Below, piece by piece: positions 12,961 through 61,500 of a stretch of 64,000 nucleotides of DNA. The position numbers were made by a program, and so were the translations under genes. Location of the stretch: assembly GCA_014323785.1 (NCBI GenBank), contig JACONJ010000023.1, forward strand, positions 1 through 64,000. Reading direction: 5' to 3'. Position 1 is the first letter of the stretch; every line of letters begins with the position of its first letter. The stretch comes from Paracoccaceae bacterium (GTDB lineage: Bacteria; Pseudomonadota; Alphaproteobacteria; Rhodobacterales; Rhodobacteraceae). Under the pieces are notes generated by a model that had not been told where the DNA came from, did no database searches, and saw only the letters and a program-made list of their open reading frames with translations.

Positions 12961-13525
12961 GTTGCGGCTTGACCTCGAACTCTGAACTGCTAGCCTAACT
13001 GGATATTGACAATAATGTAACAGATGGTTGCGGCTTGACCTCGAACTCTGAACTGCTAGCCTAGCACCCGGCACGAAGGCCGGGGAGATAATGTTGCGGC
13101 TTGACCTCGAACTCTGAACTGCTAGCCTAACTGGATATTGACAATATTGTAACAGATGGTTGCGGCTTGACCTCGAACTCTGAACTGCTAGCCTCATGGT
13201 CGAGTCGCTCAACAAGGCGAGCACGTTGCGGCTTGACCTCGAACTCTGAACTGCTAGCCTTCCGTGGACCCCTCCTCCCGCGAGACCCATAGTTGCGGCT
13301 TGACCTCGAACTCTGAACTGCTAGCCTACGGCCACAACAACCAAAGGAGTGCCAACAGTTGCGGCTTGACCTCGAACTCTGAACTGCTAGCCTGACCATG
13401 CGTGCCAAATACTGGGCTTATCGGTTGCGGCTTGACCTCGAACTCTGAACTGCTAGCCTGTAAATCTATACACTCCGCCTTCAGCATCCGTTGCGGCTTG
13501 ACCTCGAACTCTGAACTGCTAGCCT
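12961..13525 (+). CRISPR. Type II-C CRISPR array, 9 repeats and 8 spacers
   Basis: Nine identical 36-nt repeats start at 12961, 13027, 13093, 13159, 13225, 13292, 13358, 13424 and 13490. Spacers are 30 nt (the fifth is 31). The repeat begins GTTGCGGCTTGACC and ends CTGAACTGCTAGCCT. Inside it, TTGACC (repeat positions 9-14) and TAGCCT (31-36) are 16 nt apart, which fits a promoter in every repeat, as known for type II-C of Neisseria. Pairing with the tracrRNA at 18223 shows crRNAs are read on the plus strand, towards and opposite to the cas genes. Spacers 1 and 3 differ at a single base. Confidence 0.97.
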
Positions 13526-22251: not shown

Positions 22252-22772
22252 CGCCGTCTGTAACACCGTCTGTGACACGGGCGGATCTGGTGCTGACGCC
22301 CGGGGGGCTGCGGTTTCGCGGGCGGTGCTTTCCCTGCAGCATCGGGCGCGGCGGGGTGCGGGCCCAAAAGCGCGAGGGCGATGGCGCAACCCCCGCCGGG
22401 GTGCACCGGATTGTCGGGTGCCTGTATCGCCCGGACCGCGTGGCGCGGCCCTGCGCCTGGGCGGTGCCCCTGCGCCCAGGAAATCTGTGGTCCGATGATC
22501 CCGGCGCGGCGGAGTACAACCGCATGCTGCGCGCGCCCTGTTCCGGCCGGCACGAACGGCTGTGGCGGGCGGACCCGCTGTATGATCTGATCCTGCTGAC
22601 GGACTGGAACTGGCCCCGCGCGGTCCCCGGGGCGGGGTCGGCGATTTTTCTGCATCAATGGCGGTGGCCGGGTGCGCCAACCGCGGGCTGTGTTGCGCTT
22701 GCGCGGGGCGATCTGCGCTGGATTGTCGCGCGCCTTGGCCGCAGGGCGCGGCTGATCTGTCGGGCTGGTTAA
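22248..22772 (+). CDS. L,D-transpeptidase (YkuD) family protein
   Basis: This 174-aa protein has the YkuD active-site pattern: GSAIFLHQWRWPGAPTAGCV, with the conserved His and the catalytic Cys in TAGCVAL. It may form 3-3 peptidoglycan cross-links or modify peptidoglycan. No signal peptide is seen, which is common in this short YkuD subfamily. It starts at a GTG overlapping the ribA stop. Its stop overlaps that of yggS on the other strand. Confidence 0.82.
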   Translation: MTPSVTPSVTRADLVLTPGGLRFRGRCFPCSIGRGGVRAQKREGDGATPAGVHRIVGCLYRPDRVARPCAWAVPLRPGNLWSDDPGAAEYNRMLRAPCSGRHERLWRADPLYDLILLTDWNWPRAVPGAGSAIFLHQWRWPGAPTAGCVALARGDLRWIVARLGRRARLICRAG

Positions 22773-23425
22773 GGCAGGACGGGGCGTTCCCCGAAGATCG
22801 CCGTTCCCACGCGGATATGGGTGGCACCGAAACTGATCGCTGTTGCGAAATCGGCACTCATCCCCATGCTCAGGTTGGGCAGGCCGTTCCGTTCGGCAAT
22901 TTTGGCCAAAAGGGCGAAATGCAGGCTGGCGTCCTCGTGCGCGGGGGGGATGCACATCAGGCCCGTTAGCGGCAGATCCAGCGCGCGGACCTGGGCGATG
23001 AAGGCGTCGGCCCCGGCGGGCGGAATTCCGGCCTTTTGCGGTTCTTCTCCAGTGTTGACCTGAATCATCAGGTCCGGGCTGTGCCCCCGTTCCTGGGCCA
23101 GTGCGGCCAGGCGGTGGGCCAGTTTGGGCCGGTCCAGCGTATGGATCGCGGTGAAGAGCTCGACGGCCTGGCGGGCCTTATTGCCCTGCAGGGGGCCGAT
23201 CAGGTGCAGGGCGATGGTATCGTATCGGGTGCAGAACGGGGGCCAGCGATTCGCGGCCTCTTGCACGCGGTTTTCGCCAAAGACGCGATGGCCCTGGTCC
23301 AGCACGGCGGCAACGCGGTTCGCCGGCTGCACCTTGGACACCGCGATAAGCGTGACAGCGTCCGGGGGGCGCTGCGCGGCGGCACAGGCCCTGGCGATGG
23401 CAGCGGTGATGTCGGGCAATGCCAT
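22769..23425 (-). CDS. YggS-family PLP homeostasis protein
   Basis: This 218-aa protein contains the PLP-lysine motif VTLIAVSKVQPANRV, GENRVQEAANRW, LHLIGPLQGNKAR and the phosphate-binding end THIRVGTAIFG. YggS/PLPBP proteins buffer pyridoxal phosphate in the cytosol. It converges on the L,D-transpeptidase gene (stops overlap). Confidence 0.92.
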   Translation of the reverse strand: MALPDITAAIARACAAAQRPPDAVTLIAVSKVQPANRVAAVLDQGHRVFGENRVQEAANRWPPFCTRYDTIALHLIGPLQGNKARQAVELFTAIHTLDRPKLAHRLAALAQERGHSPDLMIQVNTGEEPQKAGIPPAGADAFIAQVRALDLPLTGLMCIPPAHEDASLHFALLAKIAERNGLPNLSMGMSADFATAISFGATHIRVGTAIFGERPVLP

Positions 23426-23569
23426 TTCGGCCCCCCATGAACAACCCCCGGTGCTTGCCGCGCCGGGCCGTGATGATTAAGCCTGCACGGGATGATCAGG
23501 CGTATTCAATCGCCGGCAGAGCCGCGGCCAGGCACAGCAGCCGGACGCAGGGGCTGTCCCGGCCAGCAT

Positions 23570-23993
23570 TCATGGCCACGGCAGCACCAGTATTGCTAAT
23601 GCGAAACCCAACAAGACACACAACAGACCCGCCAGGATGATTACCCCCCCGGTCCGGCAATCCATCAACCCGGGTTTTCATCGCGTTCCCCTCGCATAGG
23701 CGCAGGCGGTGTTCCAAGCCGTTCATATCGGACCTGACCCCGGCGATTTCCTTGCCCATGCCCTCCTTTACCCCGGCGATTTCCTTGCCCAATCTGGTTT
23801 CTGCCTTGGCGATCTCGGTCTTTACCCCGGCGATCTCGGCGCGCAGATCCGCCTTGGTGGCCAAGGGGGCGAGGTCCGCCCTGGTGGCGAAATCGGCCTG
23901 GTCCGGGCGCAGGGCCTTGGCCTTGGCCCCTTCCTGGTCAACGCCTGATTCGGCCGCGGGGCGGGTGGCGGTGCGGGTATCAACGGCGGGCAT
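23570..23993 (-). pseudogene. Coiled-coil tail-anchored family protein, copy A (G7 frameshift)
   Basis: It starts MPAVDTRTATRPAAESGVDQ and has the family's DFATRADLAPLATKADL block, GKEIAGV coiled-coil repeats and HRLRLCEGNAMKTRVDG. The C-terminal membrane segment (VIILAGLLCVLLGFALAILV, then LPWP and stop) is in another frame. The shift lies in a G7 tract (plus-strand C at 23644-23650) where six would keep the frame; the shifted frame runs to 23496. The 3' part is almost the same as copy C, while the 5' part resembles copies E and H, so it looks mosaic. Sequencing error is possible. Confidence 0.6.
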
Positions 23994-24035
23994 GGCGGTG
24001 TCGTTCAAGAAAATCCCTGTCGCGGTGCGGGGTGT

Positions 24036-24064
24036 ATCATATCCCGGAGTCCGCTGGTGGGCAA
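24036..24064 (-). promoter_or_regulatory. Family promoter element, copy A
   Basis: TTGCCC and TATGAT 17 bp apart, ending 42 nt before the copy A start codon. One of eleven such elements in 24.0-30.1 kb. Confidence 0.65.
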
Positions 24065-24085
24065 GGGGGCGGGGGCCGTCCGCTA

Positions 24086-24451
24086 TCAAAAGGCACTGCG
24101 GGCGGCAAACCACACCAGCACCAGCAGCACCGCAAAGATTCCGCCCCCGATGCGAATGATCCAGCGGAGGTCGGCCCTTACATCGGTGATTTCCTTGCCC
24201 AATCTGGATTCTACCCCGGCGATTTCCTTGACCAATCTGGTTTCTGCCTCGGCGATCTCGGCGCGCAGGTCGGCCCTGGTGGCAAAATCGGCCTTCATAT
24301 CGGCCCGGACCCCGGCGATCTCGGTGCGCAGATCCTTCCTGGTGGCAAAATCGGCCAGATCGGCCTTTGTGGCCAGGGGGGCGAGGTCCGCCCTGGTGGC
24401 GAAATCGGCCAGATCCTCCTGGGTCTCAATCCGGGTCTGGGCTGCGGTCAT
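24086..24451 (-). CDS. Coiled-coil tail-anchored family protein, copy B
   Basis: 121 aa: MTAAQTRIETQEDLADFATR, repeated ADLAPLATKADLADFATRKD blocks, heptad/11-residue coiled coil with GKEITDV, then a tail RWIIRIGGGIFAVLLVLVWF ending AARSAF. The hydrophobic end is long enough for one membrane span, so the helical part should lie in the cytoplasm. Function is unknown; it faintly resembles DUF1640-type coiled-coil membrane proteins. Confidence 0.75.
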   Translation of the reverse strand: MTAAQTRIETQEDLADFATRADLAPLATKADLADFATRKDLRTEIAGVRADMKADFATRADLRAEIAEAETRLVKEIAGVESRLGKEITDVRADLRWIIRIGGGIFAVLLVLVWFAARSAF

Positions 24452-24503
24452 TGGTGTGTCCTTTCCCTGTGGCGGTGCGGGAAGGGAACCGCCTGTGGGG
24501 GGT

Positions 24504-24532
24504 ATCATATCCCGGAGTCCGCCGAGGGGCAA
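24504..24532 (-). promoter_or_regulatory. Family promoter element, copy B
   Basis: TTGCCC-17 bp-TATGAT, 52 nt before the copy B ATG. Confidence 0.65.
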
Positions 24533-24606
24533 GTGCGCGGGGAAGGGGGCAGTTCGCTAAAAAAGGCAGTGCGAACGGCAACCGCCCGCCGGGCCCCGGC
24601 CAGCAT

Positions 24607-24849
24607 TCATGGCCACGGCAGAACTAGTATTGCTAATGCGAAACCCAACATAACACACAACAGATCCGACAGGATGATTAGCTCCCGGCGCGGCGATCCA
24701 TTAATCCGGTTTTTCATCGCGTTCCCCTCGCATCGGTGCAGGCGGCGTTCCAGGCCGTCCATATCCGCCCGGACCCCGGCGATTTCGGTGCGTAGATCCA
24801 CGTTGGTGGCGAAGTCGGCCAGATCCTCTTGGAGATCAACTGCGGTCAT
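24607..24849 (-). CDS. Coiled-coil tail-anchored family protein, copy C (short)
   Basis: 80 aa, the shortest member: MTAVDLQEDLADFATNVDLR, one coiled-coil stretch GVRADMDGLERRLHRCEGNA, then an intact membrane tail LLCVMLGFALAILVLPWP. Its tail is a different type from the WFAARSAFL tails of copies B, D, F and H and is nearly identical at DNA level to the out-of-frame tail of copy A. Confidence 0.72.
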   Translation of the reverse strand: MTAVDLQEDLADFATNVDLRTEIAGVRADMDGLERRLHRCEGNAMKNRINGSPRRELIILSDLLCVMLGFALAILVLPWP

Positions 24850-24902
24850 TGTTGTGTCCGTTCTCTATCTGTGGCGGGGTGGGGTTCCCGCCTGTGGGGA
24901 TC

Positions 24903-24931
24903 AGCCTGTCCCGGATGCCATCGACGGGCAA
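24903..24931 (-). promoter_or_regulatory. Family promoter element, copy C (weak -10)
   Basis: TTGCCC-17 bp-CAGGCT, 53 nt before the copy C ATG. The -10 position departs from TATAAT more than in copies A, B and D. Confidence 0.5.
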
Positions 24932-24949
24932 GGGGGCGGGGGCCGTCCG

Positions 24950-25414
24950 CTATAAAAAGGCACTGCGGGCGGCAAACCACGCCACCACAAGCAGCACCGC
25001 AAAGATTCCGCCCCCGATGCGAATGATCCAGCGGAGGTCGGCCCTCACATCGGTGATTTCCTTGCCCAATCTGGATTCTACCCCGGCGATTTCCTTTCCC
25101 AATCTGGTTTCTACGCCGGCGATTTCCTTGCCCAGGCCCTCTTTCACCCCGGCGATCTCGGTTTTTACCCCAGCGATCTCGTCCTTCATATCGGACCTGA
25201 CCCCGGCGATTTCCTTGCCCAATTCCGCCTTTGCCTCGGAAATCTCGGTCTTTACCCCGGCGATTTCGGCGCGCAGGTCGGCCTTGGTGGCCAAGGGGGT
25301 CAGGTCCGCCCTGGTGGCGAAATCGGCCTGCTCCGGGTGGCGGGCTTTGGTCTGGATCTTGGCCTTGGCCTGTTCCTGGGGGTGGCTGGCGGTGCGGGTA
25401 TCAACGGCGGGCAT
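24950..25414 (-). CDS. Coiled-coil tail-anchored family protein, copy D
   Basis: 154 aa: MPAVDTRTASHPQEQAKAKI, DFATRADLTPLATKADL, then 11-residue repeats (GKEIAGVETRL, GKEIAGVESRL) and the tail IGGGIFAVLLVVAWFAARSA. Eleven-residue periodicity suggests a right-handed coiled coil. Its last 150 bp are almost identical to those of copy B. Confidence 0.75.
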   Translation of the reverse strand: MPAVDTRTASHPQEQAKAKIQTKARHPEQADFATRADLTPLATKADLRAEIAGVKTEISEAKAELGKEIAGVRSDMKDEIAGVKTEIAGVKEGLGKEIAGVETRLGKEIAGVESRLGKEITDVRADLRWIIRIGGGIFAVLLVVAWFAARSAFL

Positions 25415-25454
25415 GGCGGTATCCTTGGCAAAATCCCTGTCGCGGTGCGGGGGT

Positions 25455-25483
25455 ATCATATCCCGGAGTCCGCCAGTGGGCAA
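25455..25483 (-). promoter_or_regulatory. Family promoter element, copy D
   Basis: TTGCCC-17 bp-TATGAT, 40 nt before the copy D ATG. Confidence 0.65.
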
Positions 25484-25514
25484 GGGGGCGGGGGCCGTCC
25501 GCTATAACCGCCCA

Positions 25515-26219
25515 CTAGAAAAAGGCACCGCGGGCCCAGGCCCCCAGTAGCACCAGCACCACCGCAAAAATTGCGCCTCCGATGCCCTTTATCCAGCGGA
25601 GGTCGGTTTTCATCCCGGCCCGGAATTCGGCAATTTCCTTGCCCAGGCCCTCCTTCACCCCGGCAATTTCCTTGCCCAGGCCCTCCTTCACCCCGGCGAT
25701 CTGGTCCTTCATATCGGACCTGACCCCGGCAATTTCCTTGCCCAGGCCCTCCTTCACCCCGGCGATCTGGTCCTTCATATCGGACCTGACCCCGGCAATT
25801 TCCTTGCCCAGGCCCTCCTTCACCCCGGCGATCTGGTCCTTCATATCGGACCTGACCCCGGCAATTTCCTTGCCCAGGCCCTCCTTTACCCCGGCGATCT
25901 CGGTGCGCAATTCTGCCTTCACCCCAGCGATTTCCTTGACCAATCTGGTTTCTGCCTCGGCGATCTCGGCGCGCAGGTCGGCCTTGGTGGCGAAATCGGC
26001 CTTCATCTCGGCGCGGACCTTGGCGAACTCGTCCTTCATATCGGTCCGGACGCCGGCGATCTCGGCCTTTACCTCGGCCAGATCCTTCTTGGTGGCAAAC
26101 TTGGTGGCAAAATCGGCCATATCCGGGCGCAGGGCCTCGGCCCCTTCCTGGTCAACGCCTGATTCAGCCGGGGGGCGTGTGGCGGTGCGGCTGGCGGTGC
26201 GGGTATCAACGGCGGGCAT
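25515..26219 (-). CDS. Coiled-coil tail-anchored family protein, copy E (longest)
   Basis: 234 aa, the longest member. After MPAVDTRTASRTATRPPAES and DFATKFATKKDL it holds a long coiled coil, including three exact 22-residue units (IAGVRSDMKDQ followed by IAGVKEGLGKE), and ends IKGIGGAIFAVVLVLLGAWA plus RGAFF. The expansion comes from a 66-bp DNA tandem repeat. First gene left of the porin, divergent from it. Confidence 0.75.
   Translation of the reverse strand: MPAVDTRTASRTATRPPAESGVDQEGAEALRPDMADFATKFATKKDLAEVKAEIAGVRTDMKDEFAKVRAEMKADFATKADLRAEIAEAETRLVKEIAGVKAELRTEIAGVKEGLGKEIAGVRSDMKDQIAGVKEGLGKEIAGVRSDMKDQIAGVKEGLGKEIAGVRSDMKDQIAGVKEGLGKEIAGVKEGLGKEIAEFRAGMKTDLRWIKGIGGAIFAVVLVLLGAWARGAFF
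25633..25895 (-). repeat. 66-bp tandem repeat inside copy E
   Basis: The marker GATCTGGTCC recurs at 25698, 25764 and 25830, exactly 66 bp apart, with partial units on both sides. 66 is divisible by three, so unit gain or loss changes coiled-coil length without breaking the frame. Confidence 0.9.
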
Positions 26220-26273
26220 GGCGGTGTCCTTTCTTTACCTGTGGCGGGGAAGGGGTTCTCGCCTGTGGGGATC

Positions 26274-26302
26274 AGCCTATCCCGGAGGCCGCCGGTGGGC
26301 AA
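26274..26302 (-). promoter_or_regulatory. Family promoter element, copy E1
   Basis: TTGCCC-17 bp-TAGGCT, 54 nt before the copy E ATG. Confidence 0.55.
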
Positions 26303-26334
26303 GCGCGGAGGGGGGATCCCCGCCCGTGGGAATC

Positions 26335-26363
26335 AGCCTATCGCGGAATCTCCCGACGGGCAA
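26335..26363 (-). promoter_or_regulatory. Family promoter element, copy E2 (second in tandem)
   Basis: TTGCCC-17 bp-TAGGCT, 61 bp upstream of E1. The tandem pair may mark a lost gene between them or a double promoter. Confidence 0.5.
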
Positions 26364-26635
26364 GCGCGGCAAGGCCCCCGCAACCGCGGCACCCCGCCAT
26401 GAAAAGGCACCGCGGGCCAAAACCTCGCCCGCCACACACCGCACCCCCGCCATCACCCCGCAACCGCAGCCCCCCCCCGCCCCCGCAACTGTGGCCATTT
26501 TGCAACACCTGCGCACAATCTTTCCCCCGCCTGTTCGCAGTGCTTGCACGGGCCGCCCCGGCGCGCCACATTCCCCCCACGCGCAAGGCTGGAAAATCCC
26601 TTCCGGCACACGCAAACAGCAAAGGAAACGAACCA

Positions 26636-28228
26636 ATGAAAAAGGTTCTTTACACCACCACGGCCCTTGTGGCCCTGGCTGGCACCGCCCAGGCCGAGGT
26701 CTCGCTGAGCGGGTCCGCCAAAATGGGCATTGTCGGTGGCGACGACGACGACCGTAACGACGAGGTGCAGTTCTGGCAGGATGTCGATGTAACCTTCGGC
26801 CTGTCAGGGACCACCGATAACGGCCTGACCTTTGGCGCGTCCGTCGATCTGGATGAAAGTATCGAGGATACCTCAAAGTATGACGATGGCGGCACCACCG
26901 TGTTCATCTCGGGCGGGTTCGGCACCCTGACCATGGGCGATACCGACGGTGCCCTAGACTGGGCGATGTTTGAGGCCAACACCGCCGGCAGCCCGGGCTC
27001 CATCGACGATGCCGAGACTGGCCACACGGGCTACCTCGGTTCCTATGGTGACGGGGCGACGAGTGTTGCGCTGCCTGTGATGCCCACCCGCCGTGCGGTT
27101 GTGGTTGAAGTCGATAAGGATGCTGCTGATTACACCGATGATGGCAGGCCGACTATCGCCGTTGATGGTGGGACTGCTAATATCGCTGTCACGCATGCCA
27201 GGAAAAACGACGGACCACAACAGGGTGACACGGGTGACGAGGTGCCAGAGGTGGATCTGGAGGAAGACGGGTCCAATCAAGATGATTACGATAAATGGAT
27301 CATCTACCGCGACTCCACCGTGGCCCACGCCCAGACGACACATGCTGCCATCAATGTCCTTGGAGCCGAACGCAATGGTCGTCCCTTGAATCTGGCCAAG
27401 GATGGCTTTGAGTTCAAGAAAGATGACGTTGTTACGATGTCCGGCTTTGACGATAGTGCATCTGACGAAACCGACGCTGACGGCCAGATCCTGCGGTATC
27501 ACACCAACTTTGGTGACTTCGGCGTTGCCGTGTCGCTGGAACAGGCCGCGGGCGACGATGGCAAAGTGGGCAGCAACGCCAACGGCGGCTCCATGGCCAT
27601 CGGTGCCACCTATGCCATGGCACTGTCCGGCATGGACCTGTCCTTTGGTGCGGGCTATCAATCCACCGATTTCAATGTCACGGGTGATCAGAAGATCTAT
27701 GGCCTGAGCGTCAGGGCCGAGATGGCCAACGGCTTCTCTGCCGCCCTGCAATACAGCGACTGGTCCGGCATTCCCACCGTTCGCGAGTCGACGCTCACTA
27801 CGGAGTGGGTTGTCGAAGGTGATACCAACAATAATGGTGTGCGGGATGCTGGTTATCGCGATGTGGCTGAGATGGATGCAGATGGTAATCCTACAGGTAA
27901 TCGCACCTGCGAAGGTGTAGCTGTAAGTGCGACCAGTCCGTGCTATCTGCCCGAAGAAATCGTCCTGAGTGCCAAGATCAGTGGCGAGCCCGCCGATCTG
28001 GTCACCCGGGACGATTCGCACATCGGCATCGGCCTGGGCTATGATGCTGCCCCGTTTGCGGTTCACGTGAACTGGGGGGAGTATGACTCGGGTGCCTCCG
28101 GTTACGGCCTGGCCGCGGCCTATGACCTGGGCGGTGGTGCCCACGTCAAGCTGGGCTATGGCTCATCCAGCCCTGCTGATGGGGAAGATACCAGCAAGTG
28201 GTCCCTGGGCGTGTCCATGTCCTTCTAA
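26636..28228 (+). CDS. Outer-membrane porin
   Basis: This 530-aa protein has a signal peptide (MKKVLYTTTALVALAGTAQA), the alphaproteobacterial porin opening EVSLSGSAKMGIVG, GGFGTLTMGDTDGALDW, a glycine/aromatic beta-strand pattern and a C-terminal Phe (WSLGVSMSF) used by the BAM machinery. It forms a general diffusion pore. It is longer than the 300-400 aa usual here; Asp-rich segments around residues 150-260 and 385-460 probably are extended external loops. AAAGGAAAC gives a ribosome-binding site. About 270 bp upstream (26364-26635) holds no gene and no confident promoter. It is flanked on both sides by the coiled-coil family. Confidence 0.9.
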   Translation: MKKVLYTTTALVALAGTAQAEVSLSGSAKMGIVGGDDDDRNDEVQFWQDVDVTFGLSGTTDNGLTFGASVDLDESIEDTSKYDDGGTTVFISGGFGTLTMGDTDGALDWAMFEANTAGSPGSIDDAETGHTGYLGSYGDGATSVALPVMPTRRAVVVEVDKDAADYTDDGRPTIAVDGGTANIAVTHARKNDGPQQGDTGDEVPEVDLEEDGSNQDDYDKWIIYRDSTVAHAQTTHAAINVLGAERNGRPLNLAKDGFEFKKDDVVTMSGFDDSASDETDADGQILRYHTNFGDFGVAVSLEQAAGDDGKVGSNANGGSMAIGATYAMALSGMDLSFGAGYQSTDFNVTGDQKIYGLSVRAEMANGFSAALQYSDWSGIPTVRESTLTTEWVVEGDTNNNGVRDAGYRDVAEMDADGNPTGNRTCEGVAVSATSPCYLPEEIVLSAKISGEPADLVTRDDSHIGIGLGYDAAPFAVHVNWGEYDSGASGYGLAAAYDLGGGAHVKLGYGSSSPADGEDTSKWSLGVSMSF

Positions 28229-28236
28229 GGGGCATC

Positions 28237-28272
28237 CCCAAGGGGGGGCCTTCCCCAAGGGCCCCCCTATCC
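28237..28272 (+). terminator. GC-rich hairpin after the porin
   Basis: A GGGGGGGCC arm and a GGGCCCCCC arm can pair around a short loop just after the porin stop. There is no T-run, so termination is only suggested. Confidence 0.35.
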
Positions 28273-28358
28273 CCTTCCGTGCGGGGGCGGGCCCTGGTGC
28301 CTGCCCCTGCACACCCCGTTTCTTTTATGCACATTTTTATCCGGGGCCACCCGCCCCC

Positions 28359-28387
28359 TTGCCCACCGGCGGTGTCCGGGATATGAT
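28359..28387 (+). promoter_or_regulatory. Family promoter element, copy F
   Basis: TTGCCC-17 bp-TATGAT, ending 38 nt before the copy F ATG. Confidence 0.65.
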
Positions 28388-28425
28388 ACCCCCCGCACCA
28401 CCTGCAGCAGGGAAGGGACACCGCA

Positions 28426-28803
28426 ATGCCCGCCGTTGAGCCCCAAGAGGATCTGGCCGACTTCGCCACCAGGGCGGATCTGGCCCCCCTGGCCACCAGG
28501 AAGGACCTGGCCGATTTCGCCACAAAGAAGGATCTGGCCGAGGTAAAGGCCGACCTGCGCACCCAGATCGCCGGGGTCCGGTCCGATATGAAGGCCGATT
28601 TTGCCACCAAGGCCGACCTGCGCGCCGAGATCGCCGAGGCAGAAACCAGATTGGTCAAGGAAATCGCCGGGGTGAAGGAGGGCCTGGGCAAGGAAATCAC
28701 CGATGTGAGGGCCGACCTTCGCTGGATAAAGGGCATCGGCAGTTTCATGGCTGCGATGCTGGCCGCGCTGGTGTGGTTTGCCGCCCGCAGTGCCTTTTTA
28801 TAG
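28426..28803 (+). CDS. Coiled-coil tail-anchored family protein, copy F
   Basis: 125 aa: MPAVEPQEDLADFATRADLA, three ADL(A/R) blocks, a coiled coil with GVRSDMKADFATKADL, then IKGIGSFMAAMLAALVWFAA and a RSAFL end. First family gene right of the porin, same strand as the porin. Its GKEITDVRADLRWIKG region matches copies B and D, which lie on the other side. Confidence 0.75.
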   Translation: MPAVEPQEDLADFATRADLAPLATRKDLADFATKKDLAEVKADLRTQIAGVRSDMKADFATKADLRAEIAEAETRLVKEIAGVKEGLGKEITDVRADLRWIKGIGSFMAAMLAALVWFAARSAFL

Positions 28804-28834
28804 CGGGCGGTTATAGCGGACGGCCCCCGCCCCC

Positions 28835-28863
28835 TTGCCCACTGGCGGACTCCGCGACAGGCT
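28835..28863 (+). promoter_or_regulatory. Family promoter element, copy G (weak -10)
   Basis: TTGCCC-17 bp-CAGGCT, 60 nt before the copy G ATG. The following leader is nearly identical to that of copy I. Confidence 0.5.
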
Positions 28864-28923
28864 GTGATCCCCACAGGCGGGGCCCCTTCCCCGCACCGCC
28901 ACAGATAGAGAACGGACACAGCA

Positions 28924-29334
28924 ATGCCCGCAGTTGATACCCAAGAGGATCTGGCCGACTTCGCCACCAAGGCGGACCTGGCCCCCCTGGCCACCAAGGC
29001 CGACCTGGCCGATTTCGCCACCAAGAAGGATCTGCACACCGAAATCGCCGGCGTCCGGGCCGATATGAAGGCCGATTTCGCCACCAAGGCCGACCTGCGC
29101 GCCGAGATCGCCGAGGTAAAGACCGAAATCGCCGAGGCAAAGGCAGACCTGGGCAAGGAAATCGCCGGGGTCCGGTCCGATATGAAGGACCAGATCGCCG
29201 GGGTAAAAACCGAGATCGCCGGGGTAAAAACCGAGATCGCCGGGGTAAAAACCGACCTCCGCTGGATAAAGGGCATCGGAAGCGCAATTTTTGCGGTGCT
29301 GGTGTGGTTTGCCGCCCGCAGTACCTTTTTCTAG
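28924..29334 (+). CDS. Coiled-coil tail-anchored family protein, copy G
   Basis: 136 aa: MPAVDTQEDLADFATKADLA, repeated DFATKKDLHTEIAGVRADM blocks, three IAGVKTE units in a row, then IKGIGSAIFAVLVWFAARST plus FF. The upstream 85 bp and first 40 bp of coding sequence are almost the same as in copy I, a sign of recent segmental duplication. Confidence 0.75.
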   Translation: MPAVDTQEDLADFATKADLAPLATKADLADFATKKDLHTEIAGVRADMKADFATKADLRAEIAEVKTEIAEAKADLGKEIAGVRSDMKDQIAGVKTEIAGVKTEIAGVKTDLRWIKGIGSAIFAVLVWFAARSTFF

Positions 29335-29346
29335 CGAACCGCCCCC

Positions 29347-29375
29347 TTGCCCACTGGCGGCATCCGTGATATGAT
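29347..29375 (+). promoter_or_regulatory. Family promoter element, copy H1 (no gene of its own)
   Basis: TTGCCC-17 bp-TATGAT. It is followed not by a gene but by a second element 61 bp downstream. Confidence 0.55.
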
Positions 29376-29407
29376 ATCCCCCACAGGCGGGGCCCCTCTC
29401 CGCGCGC

Positions 29408-29436
29408 TTGCCCCTCGGCGGGATCCGGGGTATGAT
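29408..29436 (+). promoter_or_regulatory. Family promoter element, copy H2
   Basis: TTGCCC-17 bp-TATGAT, 40 nt before the copy H ATG. Confidence 0.65.
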
Positions 29437-29476
29437 ACCCCGCACCGCGACAAGGATTTTCCCAAGGACACCGCAC

Positions 29477-29986
29477 ATGCCCGCCGTTGATACCCGCACC
29501 GCCAGCCGCACCACCACACGCCCCCCGGCCGAATCAGGCGTTGACCAAGAAGGGGCCAAGGCCAAAGCCCGCCACCCGGATCAGGACAATTTCGCCACCA
29601 GGGCGGACCTCGCCCCCCTGGCCACCAAGGCCGATCTGGCCGATTTTGCCACAAAGAAGGATCTGCACACCGAGATCGCCGGCGTCCGGGCCGATATGAA
29701 GGACGAGTTCGCCAAGGTCCGCGCCGAGATGAAGGCCGATTTTGCCACCAAGGCCGACCTGCGCGCCGAAATCGCCGAGGTCCGGACCGAGATCGCCGGG
29801 GTAGAAACCAGATTGGGCAAGGAAATCGCCGGGGTCCGGTCCGATATGAAGGACCAGATCGCCGGGGTAAAAACCGAGATCACCGGGGTAAAAACCGACC
29901 TCCGCTGGATAAAGGGCATCGGCAGTTTCATGGCTGCGATGCTGGCCGCGCTGGTGTGGTTTGCCGCCCGCAGTGCCTTTTTATAG
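29477..29986 (+). CDS. Coiled-coil tail-anchored family protein, copy H
   Basis: 169 aa: MPAVDTRTASRTTTRPPAES followed by GVDQEGAKAKARHPDQ, the N-terminus type shared with copies A and E. DFATKKDLHTEIAGV blocks and an 11-residue coiled coil follow, then IKGIGSFMAAMLAALVWFAA and RSAFL. The tail is the same as in copy F. Confidence 0.75.
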   Translation: MPAVDTRTASRTTTRPPAESGVDQEGAKAKARHPDQDNFATRADLAPLATKADLADFATKKDLHTEIAGVRADMKDEFAKVRAEMKADFATKADLRAEIAEVRTEIAGVETRLGKEIAGVRSDMKDQIAGVKTEITGVKTDLRWIKGIGSFMAAMLAALVWFAARSAFL

Positions 29987-30003
29987 CGGGCAGGCTGCCC
30001 CCC

Positions 30004-30032
30004 TTGCCCACCGGCGGACTCCGCGACAGGCT
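30004..30032 (+). promoter_or_regulatory. Family promoter element, copy I (weak -10)
   Basis: TTGCCC-17 bp-CAGGCT, 60 nt before the copy I ATG. Confidence 0.5.
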
Positions 30033-30092
30033 GTGATCCCCACAGGCGGGGCCCCTTCCCCGCACCGCCACAGATAGAGAACGGACACAGCA

Positions 30093-30572
30093 ATGCCCGC
30101 AGTTGATACCCAAGAGGGTCTGGCCGACTTCGCCACCAAGGCGGACCTGGACGATTTGGCCACCAATGCCGATCTGCGCACCGAGATCGCCGAGGTGAAG
30201 GCCGCGATGGCCAGCCTGGAACGCCGCCTGCGCACCGAGAACACCGAGGGCAGGACAGAGCTGCGCACCAGGATCAGCGAAGTCGATATCGGGATGATCA
30301 ACAAAATCGGAGAGATGGAACGCCGCCTGCGCACCGAGAACACCGAGGGCAGGACAGAGCTGCGCACCAGGATCAGCGAAGTCGATATCGGGATGATCAA
30401 CAAGATCGGCGAGGTCCGGGTCGAGATGGCCAGCCTGGAACGCCGCCTGTGCACCGAGATCAGCGAGGGCAGGATCGAGATGGTCGATGTGAAAGTCGAC
30501 GTGGGATTTATAAAACTCATCGGGGGCGGAATCCTTCTGGTAGTGTACATACTTTTTTTGATTTTTGCTTGA
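30093..30572 (+). CDS. Coiled-coil tail-anchored family protein, copy I
   Basis: 159 aa: MPAVDTQEGLADFATKADLD, then a divergent coiled coil made of two near-identical units (RLRTENTEGRTELRTRISEV and DIGMINKIGE), and a third tail type, FIKLIGGGILLVVYILFLIF. The N-terminal 40 bp and leader match copy G, but the rest differs, so it looks like a chimera. Confidence 0.72.
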   Translation: MPAVDTQEGLADFATKADLDDLATNADLRTEIAEVKAAMASLERRLRTENTEGRTELRTRISEVDIGMINKIGEMERRLRTENTEGRTELRTRISEVDIGMINKIGEVRVEMASLERRLCTEISEGRIEMVDVKVDVGFIKLIGGGILLVVYILFLIFA

Positions 30573-30593
30573 ACCCTTCCTGTGAGTGCGCAA

Positions 30594-30700
30594 GAGGACA
30601 CCGCCAGACCCGCACCGCCAGCCGGACCCCGGCCGATGCGGATATGGCCGCGCCGATGATCACGCTGGTGTGGTTTGCCGTTCGCGGTGCCTTTTTCCAG
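30594..30700 (+). pseudogene. Remnant of a tenth coiled-coil family gene
   Basis: It keeps a start-like part (RTASRTPADADM) and a tail (LVWFAVRGAFF), but the coiled coil is deleted and no start codon context remains. The usual TTTTTCTAGCG at the tail end reads TTTTTCCAGCG, so the stop codon is mutated. Confidence 0.6.
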
Positions 30701-30785
30701 CGGGGGGCCTTGCCGTCCCTGTGCGCCTGTGCCATCAAGGGGGCGGCAACATAAGGGCGACACAGCCGGAACAGGGGGCAAAGGG

Positions 30786-31280
30786 ATGAATTCTGTGTGT
30801 GGCGGACGGGCCGGGGCGGTGCTGCTGATGCTGCTGGCCCTGGCGGCGTGCGGCGGGGGAAACCCGTTCCGTAACGAAATGGATCAGGATACGCGCGATG
30901 CGCTGGTGGCGGACGGCACGCTGCCCGATCCGAATGCGCCCTCAATCCTTGATCTGCTGCGGCCGGGCGATGACCCGAATACCGCGGTGGCGGTTAACCT
31001 GTACCTGTGGAATGCCGCGCTGGAGGTGCTGGAATTCATGCCGGTTGAGATGGCAGACCCGTTTTCAGGCGTTATCGTCTTCGGGTATGGCCGGGTGCCG
31101 GGGGAAAATCGCACCTATCGCGCAACGGTGCATGTCAGCGACCCGGCCCTGGACGCGCGCAGCCTGCGCGTGGCGGTGATGGGCCCAGGGGGGCCGGTAA
31201 GCCAGGAGGAGGCCCGCCAGATCGAAGACGCCATCCTGACCCGCGCGCGGCAGTTGCGGGTGCGTGACGCGGCACTTTAG
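30786..31280 (+). CDS. DUF3576 lipoprotein
   Basis: This 164-aa protein has a lipoprotein signal (AVLLMLLALAACGGG, lipobox LAAC) and the DUF3576 body: NLYLWNAALEVLEFMP, DPFSGVIVFGYGRVPGENRT and YRATVHVSDPALDAR. In alphaproteobacteria this gene commonly sits directly before leuS, as here (33-bp gap). Probably an outer-membrane or periplasmic assembly-related lipoprotein; function unknown. Confidence 0.88.
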   Translation: MNSVCGGRAGAVLLMLLALAACGGGNPFRNEMDQDTRDALVADGTLPDPNAPSILDLLRPGDDPNTAVAVNLYLWNAALEVLEFMPVEMADPFSGVIVFGYGRVPGENRTYRATVHVSDPALDARSLRVAVMGPGGPVSQEEARQIEDAILTRARQLRVRDAAL

Positions 31281-31312: not shown

Positions 31313-34045
31313 ATGTCGCGCTATAATCCCGCCGGGATGGAACCCCGATGGCAAAGCAAATGGGACGAGGAGGGGGTGTTTTGCGCCGCGCCCGACCCCG
31401 ACAAGCCCAAGTATTACGTGCTGGAGATGTTTCCCTATCCGTCGGGGCGCATCCATATCGGGCATGTGCGCAACTATACGATGGGCGATGTGATTGCGCG
31501 CCATAAACTGGCAACGGGGCATAATGTGCTGCACCCGATGGGGTGGGATGCCTTTGGCCTGCCGGCCGAGAATGCCGCCATGGCTTTGGGCAAGCATCCG
31601 GCGGACTGGACGCGGGATAATATCGCCGCAATGCGGGCGCAGATGCGCCCCCTGGGCCTGTCCATCGACTGGGTGCGGGAATTCGCCACGTGTGACCCGG
31701 AGTATTATGGCCAGCAGCAAGCACTGTTTCTGGATTTTCTTGCCGCGGGGCTGGCCGAGCGCCGCCCTGCCATGGTGAACTGGGATCCGGTGGAACGCAC
31801 AGTGCTGGCCAATGAACAGGTGATTGACGGCAAGGGCTGGCGTTCCGGCGCGGTGGTGGAACGCCGCGAATTGACGCAGTGGTTTTTCAAAATCTCTGAC
31901 ATGGCCGAGGAGTTGCTGACATCCCTGGACGGGCTGGCGCACTGGCCCGCCAAGGTAAAACTGATGCAGGCCAACTGGATCGGCAAATCCCGGGGGCTGC
32001 AGTGCACATGGCCCCTGGTGACGCCCGTTTGCGGCCACGACGGGGTTGAGGTGTATACCACGCGGCCCGATACGCTGATGGGGGCGTCTTTTGTTGCGTT
32101 ATCGCCGTATCATCCCCTGATCAAAGCCTTGGAAGGGGGCAATGCGGCCTTGGCCGAGGGTGGGGCAGAGATGCGCCAGAGTTTCGAACGGGGGGACGAC
32201 CGCGAAAAGGCAATTCTGGCCCAGATGTTTCAGGGCGGCACCAGCGCGGCGGCGGTGGACGCGGGCGAAAAGATCGGGTACGATACCGGGCTGCGCGTGC
32301 GGCACCCCCTGGACCCTGATTGGGAGCTGCCGGTCTGGGTGGCCAATTTCGTTATGATGGATTACGGGACGGGGGCGATTTTCGGCTGCCCGGCGCACGA
32401 CCAGCGGGATTTAGAGTTTGCGCGGAAATACGGGTTGCCGGTGCGTGATACCTTTATGGCATTGAAGGATCCGGCCCCAGTGACCGACCGGGCCTTTGTT
32501 CCGCCAAAGACCGACCGGGTAAAGTGGATCGATCATTTCACGGGGCTCAGGGAGGCGACAGGGGAAGAGGCCATCGACGCCGCAATCCGTTTTATCGAGG
32601 GCAAGGGGTGCGGCCGGGGCGTAACCCGCTATCGCCTGCGGGATTGGGGGATCAGCAGGCAACGCTACTGGGGCTGCCCGATTCCGGTGGTGCATTGCCC
32701 CGCGTGCGGCGTGGTGCCGGAACGGAAAGAAAATCTGCCCATCGAATTGCCCCGGGATGTGGATCTGTCGGCCCCGGGCAACCCCCTGGACCGGCACCCG
32801 ACCTGGCGCAATGTGCGCTGCCCGGCGTGCGGGGGGGAGGCCCTGCGGGAAACCGACACGATGGACACGTTTGTGGATTCATCGTGGTATTTTGCGCGGT
32901 TTACGGCCCCGGGGGCGAAAACCCCGACGGATGCGGCGACCGTGGCCCGCTGGATGAATGTGGACCAGTATATCGGCGGGGTGGAACACGCGATTCTGCA
33001 CCTGCTTTATGCCCGATTCTTTGCCCGTGCGCTGCACAGGTGCGGGCATCTGCCGGAAACGGCGGTGGAACCCTTTGACGCGCTGTTCACGCAGGGGATG
33101 GTAACGCACGCGATTTATAGGAGCTGGGACCGGATACCAGACCACAGCAGGCCCAAGAGCGAAGAAGCCGTGATCATTGTTCCCCGTTATCACTACCCGG
33201 AGGAGGTTGTGCTCCATCAACAGGGTGACAAGGTGGTTGCATTGCTGAGATCCGAGATGAAGGAAGATAAATTTGATCCTGAAAACGCCAAAGATCGCGA
33301 TGACTGGTTACGAGCTTATGAACGCCGGGAAATCGAGATTATCCCCTCGGCCAAGATGTCAAAATCGAAGAAGAACGTTGTGGACCCGGTGGCGATTATT
33401 GACCGGTATGGGGCGGATACCGTGCGCTGGTTCGTGCTGTCGGACAGCCCGCCGGAACGCGATGTGGAATGGACCGCGGCGGGGGCCGAGGCCGCGTTCC
33501 GGCACCTGTCCCGCGTCTGGGCACTGTCCGAGCGTATCGCCGGGATGGATCCGTCCGCGCCGGGGGCGGGGGATGAAGGTGTGCTGCGCGCGCTGCACAG
33601 GACGATTCGCGATGTCACGGCGGACATTGCGCGTTTCGGCTTTAATTCAGCCATCGCCAGGCTGTATGCCTTTACCGGCATTCTGGCGAAATCCACGGCA
33701 GGCCATGCCGTGCAGCGGCAGGCGATGATGGGGCTGGCGCAACTGATGGCCCCCATGGTTCCGCACCTCGCCGAGGGGATATGGGAACGCCATGGCAGTG
33801 AAGGGCTGGTTGTTACCGCACCCTGGCCCCGGGCAGAGGCGCGCTATCTGGCCGAGGATACGGTAACTTTGCCGATTCAGATCAACGGCAGGCGCAAATC
33901 CGACATTGTGGTGGCGAAAGACCTGGCCAGGGACAAGGTTGAACAACTGGTGCTGGCGGATGCGGCCGTGGCCAGGGCCCTGCAGGGCGGGACGCCGAAG
34001 AAGCTGATTCTTGTGCCGAACCGAATTGTCAATGTTGTTCTTTAG
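31313..34045 (+). CDS. leuS: Leucyl-tRNA synthetase
   Basis: The 910-aa class I synthetase has [20 protein letters not shown] (HIGH), an editing domain, zinc-site Cys pairs ([15 protein letters not shown]) and [12 protein letters not shown] (KMSKS at residues 681-685). It charges tRNA-Leu. It is about 40 aa longer than I expect because of a charged insertion before KMSKS (around residues 605-675, with [19 protein letters not shown] and then [13 protein letters not shown]). It is translated first in an operon with lptE (14-bp overlap) and holA. Confidence 0.96.
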
Positions 34046-58515: not shown

Positions 58516-61500
58516 TCACAGGTTGGTGGTAGAGTCGGGTTCGAATATGAACATATCCGCGGTAATGGCAAAGGCCGCGACACCCGTAAGCGTGATGCTG
58601 TTGCCAGAACCCAGATCAATCACGGCATCCGTGGCACCGCTTGCCGCGGCTTGCACTGCCGCGAAATCCGCGAACGCGCCCTGATCAAGGACGATCTTGT
58701 CCCCGGTCACGTTGAAGTCCGTGATGGTGTCCTGACCAGAACCGGGATCCAGGAAGCGGAAGTGATCCGCACCATGACCACCTGTCAGGCTGTCGTTCCC
58801 GGCGCCACCGTCCAGCGTATCGTTCCCGGCACCCGCACCGCCATCAAGACGGTTGGCACCAGCATTCCCGGTCAGGGAGTCGTTATGGCGTGAACCACGG
58901 AGGTGCTCAATATTGCGCAGCTCATCGCCCGCGGCGTGGCCACCGGTGTTTGAGGCCCCCACGACAAGGCTGACATTCACGCCAGCGTCCGAAAACAAAT
59001 AAGCGGCTTCGTCCTCACCCGCACCGCCATCCAGCGTGTCGGCACCCGCACCACCAGAGAGCCGGTTGGCACCAGCATCCCCGATCAGGGTGTCGTTATG
59101 GCTTGATCCACGGATGCGCTCAATATTGCGCAGCACATCGCCCTGGGCGTCGCCACCGCTGGCCGTGCCAGCCACAAGGTTCACATAAACGCCTGCGTCC
59201 GAAAACCAATAATCGGCCTCGTCCTCACCCACACCGCCATCCAGCGTGTCGGCACCGGCATCGCCGGTCAGCCAGTCGTGACCGGCACCACCTGTAAGGC
59301 TGTCAGCACCGGCATCGCCGCGCAGCCAGTCGTGACCGGCACCACCTGTCAGGGTGTCGTTACCGGCAAGACCATAGAGAGCATTGTTGCCGTCATCTCC
59401 GGTCAGGGTATCGTTATGGTTTGAGCCGGCCAGGTTCTCAATATCGCGCAGCACATCGCCCGCGGCGTGGCCACCACTGGCCGTGCCAGCCGCAAGGTTC
59501 ACATGAACGCCTGCGTCCGAATCCAAATATTCGGCCCGGTCCGCGCCGTCACCACCCTCCAGCGTGTCGGCACCACCCTTGCCAGTCAGCGTGTCATTAC
59601 CAGCACCACCGGTCAGGGAGTCGGGACCGTCAGTGCCTATGATGATCTGGCCTTCCGTGCCAGTTTCGGTCTGGCCGATAATCCCGTTCTCGTTATCTTC
59701 ATCCGAGCCGCCGCCAGTGCCGGGCGGGGGCGGGCCGGTATCCTCGCCCTCGTCATCTTCATCCGAGTTGACGAGCACGATAAAGGAATGGTCGGATTGC
59801 TCGGTGGTCCACGCTGCCCTGGCAGCCGCATCATCAGCATACCCATGGCCTGTCTGGATGAACGTGATGCTATTGCCATCACCTGGCAAAGCAAGGCGCA
59901 GGGTGTTGGCGTCAACAACCTCTACAGCAGCAATAACCGCCGCGGCATCCGCGAACGCGCCCGCGTCAAGGATGAGTTTGTCCCTGGCCGTGTCAAAATC
60001 CGTGATGGTATCCACACCAGACCCGGACTCTACGAAGCGGAAGTGATCAGCACCATCACCACCTGTCAGGCTGTCGTTCCCGGCACCACCCTCCAGCGTG
60101 TCGGCACCCGCACCGCCATCAAGATGGTTGGCGCCAGAATCACCGGTCAGCGTGTCGTTGTGGGCCGAGCCGATCAGGTTCTCGATTCTGCGCAGCATAT
60201 CGCCCTCGGCGTCGCCACCGCTCTGGGCCACGGTGTCGTCGGCACCAAGGTTCACATTCACGCCTTCACCCGAACCCGCATAACTGGCCGTGTCGATCCC
60301 GGCACCGCCATCCAGCGCGTCAGCACCCGCACCACCCTCCAGCGAGTCGGCACCACCCTTGCCAGTCAGCGTGTCGTCACCCGCACCACCGGTCAGCGTG
60401 TCGGTACCACCCTTGCCGTTCAGCGAGTCGTCACCGGCACCGCCATCAAGATGGTTGGCACCAGAATTACCGGTCAGCGTGTCGCCGTGGTCCGAGCCGA
60501 TCAGGTTCTCGATGTTGGTCAGCGTATCGCCCTCGGCGTCGCCACCGGTCTGGGCCACGGTGTCGTCGGCACCAAGGTCCACCATCACGCCCGCACCCGA
60601 ACCCGCATAACTGGCCGTGTCGGCACCCGCACCGCCATCCAGCGTGTCAGCACCCGCACCACCGGTCAGGGTGTCGTCACCGTCACCGCCGGTCAACGAG
60701 TCATTACCGGCACCACCATCAAGATGGTTGGCCATAGCATCACCGGTCAGGGTGTCGGCATGAGCCGAGCCGAGCAGGTTCTCGATGCCTTTCAGCGTAT
60801 CGCCTTGGGCGTCGCCACCGCTCTGGGCCACGGTGTCGTCGGCACTAAGGTCCACCATCACGCCCGCACCCGAACCCGCGTAACTGGCCGTGTCGGTTCC
60901 GGCACCGCCATCCAGGGTGTCAGCACCAGCACCACCGTGCAGGGAATCGGCACCGTCACCACCGGTTAGCTCGTCGTCACCGGCACCACCGGTCAGCATG
61001 TCGTCACCCGCACCGCCATCAAGACGGTTGGCATTACCATCACCGGTCAGGGTGTCGTTGTGGTCCGAGCCGACCAGGTTCTCGATGTGGCGCAGAACAT
61101 CGCCCTCGGCGTCACCACCGGAGACGGTGGCTGTGCTGGCACCAGCCAGGGCCACACTCACGCCGTCGCCCGAACCCGCATAACTGGCCGTGTCGTCATC
61201 GGCACCGCCATCCAGCGTGTCGGCACCGTCACCACCGTGCAGCACGTCACCACCGTCGCCACCGAACATCTCGTCGTTCCCGGCATCACCGGACATGCGG
61301 TCATTCCCGGCACCACCATACAGCACGTCATCACCTTCACCACCGTCCAGCGTGTCATCATCGGCACCACCGAACAGCTCGTCGTTCCCGTCACCGCCCG
61401 TCAGCGCGTCGTTTCCGGCACCACCTTCCAGCACGTCACCACCGTCACCACCGAACAGCGTGTCGTCACCTTCACCACCTTCCAGCAGGTTGGCCGCGTC

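Follow-up and report, generated by a model that had tools for sequence, protein, structure and literature searches.

The proteins described below resemble most closely those of the CCDC90/DUF1640 family. DUF1640 proteins carry, at the start of the stalk, a beta-layer with the consensus [aliphatic]-A-T-K-[polar]-[DE] (eLife, PMC4786415), a motif that is a feature of trimeric coiled coils (PMC4786415), and the yeast DUF1640 proteins Put6 and Put7 sit in the membrane facing the matrix and together form a hetero-oligomer (PMC7519068). A prokaryotic CCDC90/DUF1640 family has already been described (Adlakha, Structure 2019, as cited in PMC7519068), and a paper on Liberibacter locates DUF1640 genes in prophages (PMC5291501). 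Prokaryotic relatives of MCUR1, a scaffold protein of mitochondria, are widespread, and in the literature on them we found no bacterial function.

The kind of protein reported here is already known; the novelty lies in its being headless, multi-copy and equipped with private promoter-like elements. It was found in a window of 64,000 nucleotides (the whole stretch of DNA that was analyzed; contig JACONJ010000023.1 of assembly GCA_014323785.1) from a marine-type Paracoccaceae bacterium. We consider it probable that the copies constitute a single headless CCDC90/DUF1640-like tandem family specific to this lineage, which was split by a single inversion and likely provides inner-membrane scaffolds.

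Organization of the Array

The interval between yggS (22769–23425, minus strand), which belongs to the conserved backbone and forms the left edge, and an lptE-like lipoprotein gene (DUF3576; listed as an open reading frame at 30675–31280, plus strand, with the lipoprotein start further in), which forms the right edge, contains a porin and nine paralogous units; leuS (31313–34045, plus strand) serves as the right backbone marker. Units A to E lie on the minus strand and units F to I on the plus strand, all pointing away from the porin (26636–28228, plus strand; PF13609, 124 bits), for which a single homolog was found in the genome. The preliminary description had listed five minus-strand genes to the left of the porin and four plus-strand genes with a remnant to its right, and this layout is borne out, the remnant being a unit tail identified by repeat comparison at 30644–30707 (plus strand), adjoining lptE. 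Inspection of the sequence also located a short remnant, derived from a unit's 3' end, between unit E and the porin (approximately 26400–26425, minus strand). An Rfam scan of 19–35 kb returned no RNA.

In most units, FATxADL blocks, which are beta-layers spaced mostly nine residues apart, are followed by a coiled coil of hendecads and, at the C-terminus, a single hydrophobic span; the span is found in eight of the nine, and eight have a frame open to the tail. On the left, unit A (23496–23993, minus strand) has a long N-terminus, two nonad beta-layers and hendecads, followed by a frameshift before the membrane span, and its A/C-type tail is legible in a different frame to about 23571. Unit B (24086–24451, minus strand) has a short N-terminus, four beta-layers and tail type 1; unit C (24607–24849, minus strand) is a short form of 80 aa with one beta-layer and an A/C-type tail with a membrane span; unit D (24950–25414, minus strand) has a long N-terminus, two beta-layers, a long hendecad stalk and tail type 1; and unit E (25515–26219, minus strand; 234 aa) has the longest stalk, with 66-nt (22-residue) tandem repeats at a 99% match. 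On the right, units F (28426–28803), G (28924–29334) and H (29477–29986), all on the plus strand, each have four beta-layers, with a short N-terminus in F and G and a long one in H, and F and H share tail type 2; in the divergent stalk of unit I (30093–30572, plus strand), 99 nt (three hendecads) are duplicated in tandem. Seven of the nine units are well formed, A and C being the exceptions. The earlier statement that all copies combine an MPAVDT-type tag, the blocks, a coiled coil and a membrane span describes most of them and fails for A, owing to its frameshift, for B and C, which do not have the MPAVDT spelling, and further for C, which has no hendecad run.

Elsewhere in the window, a CRISPR-like array (12961–13525) repeats a 36-nt unit, GTTGCGGCTTGACCTCGAACTCTGAACTGCTAGCCT, about nine times, with spacers of about 30 nt, two of them nearly identical, and at positions 59000–62850 there is a long series of the 27-nt repeats that typify RTX (GGxGxD) calcium-binding proteins; a further open reading frame of RTX type lies on contig C51 of the window genome (G000).

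Relationship to the CCDC90/DUF1640 Family

The CCDC90-like profile PF07798 (DUF1640) is among the best Pfam matches of the array copies. When the copies are scanned singly, only H exceeds the cut-off of 33.5 bits, with 34.0 bits, a margin of half a bit in one copy, and part of a coiled coil's score reflects its composition. Below the cut-off lie E (30.3), G (26.3), D (23.1), I (21.8), F (16.1) and B (14.9), and F and G added in one frame reach 35.5 bits. The matches mostly begin at profile positions 75–92 (about 41 for F and I), headed relatives match from position 1, and the N-terminal head (profile positions 1 to about 50) is absent from the array copies. A decayed head within the MPAVDT...AESGVDQEGAKA N-terminus was considered and rejected: the resemblance is visible by eye and is not clearly better than that of shuffled sequences, of which 69–98 in 1,000 matched the head profile as well for A, E and H, and 13 in 1,000 for D. 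As the head is missing and the search for its remnant was negative, we call the array proteins, judging by their sequences, headless CCDC90/DUF1640-like rather than full members of the family.

The stalk opens with the ATKxD beta-layer, of which each copy has one to four blocks, in most copies with nonad spacing. A match to PDB 5APZ, the alpha/beta coiled coil of a Tcar0761 construct, was obtained with E=8e-4, and the best PHROGs profile for the array proteins is phrog_9415. Hendecads are reflected in the best hydrophobic period of A, D, E and I (3.61–3.66), and the 33- and 66-nt tandem repeats of E and the 99-nt repeat of I are their DNA form. AlphaFold, run without an alignment on the H monomer, predicted a helix at residues 51–167.

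The array proteins have no signal peptide and mostly a single C-terminal span, which suggests that they are tail-anchored, with the rod in the cytoplasm. Most units code for a disordered, polar N-terminus, one to four beta-layers, a hendecad coiled coil of varying length and the membrane span. The products would most likely enter the inner membrane by the C-terminus and project into the cytoplasm as parallel trimers, comparable to the matrix-facing DUF1640 relatives.

Exchange among the Units

The units are linked by direct and inverted repeats of 90–240 nt with 60–100% identity. Three tail types occur in more than one copy (B/D, F/H and A/C), and each is seen with both a long and a short N-terminus, which agrees with the earlier proposal of at least three tail types shuffled with different N-termini. 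The similarity reported across the porin is real (98/100 nt for B–F and for E–H); F, described earlier as matching B and D, has its best single match in B, the match to D being weaker (84/100). Exact inverted matches between the arms measure 50–65 nt, the longest being 65 nt. The mean best-100-nt identity is 82.75 within arms and 84.35 between arms, a difference reached by 86 of 126 relabelings of the arms, and in sequence terms the left and right arms are a single pool. The repeats, the divergence of the copies and the comparison of the arms thus support the earlier view of a family evolving by duplication and recombination. Unequal crossing-over and conversion among units, also across the porin, may have changed the stalk lengths and swapped the tails.

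Probable Inversion of the Porin

The backbone trx-OmpR-ribA-ldt-yggS-porin-lptE-leuS is conserved across the Rhodobacteraceae, with the ancestral-type order yggS(−) porin(−) lptE(+) leuS(+) in the relatives. In 60 relatives a porin lies between yggS and lptE/leuS, oriented divergently from leuS in all but one (59 of 60); the porin of the window is codirectional with leuS, so it is inverted relative to the others. The sole relative with a codirectional porin, at locus L117, depends on a hit that is both weak and partial (39% over 74 residues, E=6e-7). The spacer between yggS and lptE measures 7,250 nt in the window versus a median of 1,466 nt in the relatives, and no ATK-type motif was found in the spacer of the genus mates. 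That the inversion stems from an error of assembly was judged unlikely, because the longest exact inverted match between the arms is only 65 nt, a length that assemblers normally resolve.

From the comparison with the relatives, among which no strain with the array in an un-inverted layout turned up, and from a single assembly of the window, we infer that the porin was inverted. The family would have grown as one codirectional array, most simply between the porin(−) and lptE(+)/leuS, and a single inversion, with one end in the gap between yggS and the porin and the other inside the array (between A and F), would then have flipped the porin together with half of the array. A codirectional array between porin(−) and lptE(+) and one inversion would produce exactly the observed order and strands.

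DNA-inversion cassettes, such as the shufflon or the hsdS inversion, have inverted paralogous segments flanking a gene, with the ends swapped. The array might likewise be a RecA-dependent diversifier, in which the outward-facing paralogs act as inverted repeats and recombination between left and right flips the porin and swaps N-termini and tails, giving a mixed population. We regard this as conceivable but rather unlikely. The exact inverted matches between the arms and the 98/100-nt blocks speak for it, as do the three tail types, each with both types of N-terminus, and the inverted porin itself; however, a one-off inversion accounts for the same data, a single assembled state is seen, and the porin would take its promoter region along, so that an on/off switch is not evident. 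No invertase gene lies beside the array, and no site-specific recombinase was found near it, the neighbors being yggS, ldt, ribA, lptE and leuS. A generator that needs no such enzyme, in which RecA-mediated porin flips between the arrays reassort N-termini, stalk lengths and tails, giving trimeric membrane rods in a mixed population, seems a little less likely still.

Distribution of the Family

A search of 385 alphaproteobacterial genomes with a profile of the headless form yielded 11 matches in the window genome and no more than two in each of the rest, and the array is unique among the approximately 385 genomes sampled. None of six genus mates has an array copy, and a search with copy H in GTDB contigs and viral contigs confirmed no relatives. 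Besides APSE phages and Arsenophonus phage-plasmids, headed relatives were found in the window genome (contig C9) and in one from the same family (G217). The C9 copy (L054:7155-7478) is a headed DUF1640-like gene flanked by genes for a ResIII-type protein and a type III methyltransferase, with Dcm and Vsr alongside, and a copy on contig C40 (L053:7683-8117) is headless, has heptad VKTDLAG repeats and adjoins EcoRI-type methylase, SocA-like and HipA-like genes. Both dispersed copies thus sit in restriction-modification clusters, neither of them beside a porin, and no porin was found beside the phage relatives.

These locations raise the possibility, close to the anti-invader role suggested earlier, that the array is an accessory of defense or of mobile elements, with phage- or plasmid-derived membrane-anchored coiled coils that hinder invading DNA or rival phages. 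Besides the two restriction-modification loci, the best PHROGs profile and the headed P47 relatives in APSE phages and Arsenophonus phage-plasmids point in this direction; it is a serious alternative, though a rather less likely one, since the dispersed loci number just two, the array itself lies among housekeeping genes, and PADLOC gives the array copies weak matches to coiled coils, the best being to coiled-coil parts of ZorA, LeoA and JetC, with no convincing match to a full-length PADLOC model.

The same genome contains another family of coiled-coil proteins with a tail anchor (MSTPDTHSIARQLAVLEERMNT...KRDKDNQRFLVTLFGLLVAI), unrelated to the first, with five tandem copies on contig C51 (1-3219; L160/L166) and dispersed copies on C33, C11, C7, C15, C58, C37 and C39; it was found neither in the six genus mates nor in 24 other relatives. 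Two amplified families of tail-anchored coiled coils, both absent from the genus mates, suggest a general pressure for such rods. The window genome measures 2.55 Mb, compared with 3.3–4.4 Mb in the six genus mates, despite its at least two expanded coiled-coil families.

Promoter-Like Elements and Coding Potential

A promoter-like element of its own, with the pattern TTGCCC-N17-TATGAT or its AGGCT variant, precedes every unit, as does a short leader with a ribosome-binding site, which in most units ends in GGACAC just ahead of the start codon ATG. Both a pattern scan and a sigma-70 scan recovered the elements of A (24036–24064), B (24504–24532) and D (25455–25483) on the minus strand and, on the plus strand, those of F (28359–28387; TTGCCC-N17-TATGAT) and of H, which has two (29347–29375 and 29408–29436). 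AGGCT variants were recovered by the pattern scan for E (26274–26302, minus strand), G (28835–28863, plus strand) and I (30004–30032, plus strand), and by inspection of the sequence for C (24903–24931, minus strand) and as a second element upstream of E (26335–26363, minus strand). A scan of the whole genome (2.55 Mb, at most three mismatches) placed the element at nine sites, all within the array, and the reversed pattern, used as a control in the same scan, at none; a plain sigma-70 scan of the region returned seven sites versus 1.9 expected, six of the seven being the promoter-like elements of the array. Neither these elements nor the inverted orientation of the porin featured in the preliminary description.

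Differences between the copies are concentrated at third codon positions, and dN/dS lies between 0.31 and 0.72 among A, B and D–H, reaching 0.86 in pairs with I or C, where constraint is weaker. The third-position excess and the dN/dS values support the units being translated genes under moderate constraint. It is improbable, though suggested by the frameshift in A, the short C, the two tail remnants and the repeat-driven variation in length, that the array is a non-coding or decaying repeat expansion, a selfish or neutral series of tandem duplications without protein function: beyond the constraint on codons, with dN/dS down to 0.31, eight of the nine units are open to the tail, and promoter-like element and ribosome-binding site are conserved at each unit.

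Role of the Array and Its Association with the Porin

A functional link of the family with the porin, as proposed earlier, did not hold up: a survey of gene neighbors finds the porin at the same place in 60 relatives and in genus mates without the array, and family genes are scattered without a porin, in the dispersed restriction-modification copies and the phage relatives, which is the outcome that the preliminary description had named as refuting its reading. A porin-associated envelope system, with the array serving to regulate the porin, to assemble it or to sense stress in the envelope, is very improbable despite the units on both sides of the porin gene, since genus mates keep the porin without the array, family members occur elsewhere without a porin, the proteins have no signal peptide, and the split is accounted for by an inversion. 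With a cytoplasmic rod and no signal peptide, contact with an outer-membrane porin would be unlikely. The association with the porin is most likely an accident of position; the units would face outward because the porin and half of one array were turned round. The case serves as a warning that symmetrical gene layouts can arise from one inversion.

The likeliest role of the tandem family would be that of a trimeric inner-membrane scaffold that faces the cytoplasm and owes its diversity to duplication and the swapping of tails. Such scaffolds may be homo- or hetero-oligomeric, with paralogs mixing in one trimer and the length of the stalk setting the reach. By amplifying a headless form of these MCUR1 relatives, with private promoter-like elements and exchange between copies, the genome offers a natural experiment on where in the fold selection acts.

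Comparison with Known Systems

DNA-inversion cassettes resemble the array in their inverted paralogous segments around a gene and their swapped ends; in contrast to them, the array has no recombinase gene and no identified short conserved site, and one state is observed. Tcar0761 of Thermosinus (PDB 5APZ) shares the nonad-spaced [aliphatic]ATK[polar][DE] blocks and belongs to a coiled-coil family related to DUF3782 endonucleases, whereas the proteins of the window appear to be tail-anchored. The phage protein P47 (phrog_9415-like; APSE phages and Arsenophonus phage-plasmids) is encoded, like the array proteins, by a stand-alone gene and has a hendecad stalk (ADVRKDLSAEI repeats compared with AGVKEGLGKEI) and a C-terminal anchor, but it retains the head and is a single gene amid phage genes. 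The prokaryotic and mitochondrial CCDC90/MCUR1 proteins (PF07798) have the ATKxD beta-layer, the coiled-coil stalk and the single C-terminal anchor in common with the array, which differs from them in its missing head domain, its up to four beta-layers, its nine tandem units and its private promoter-like elements.
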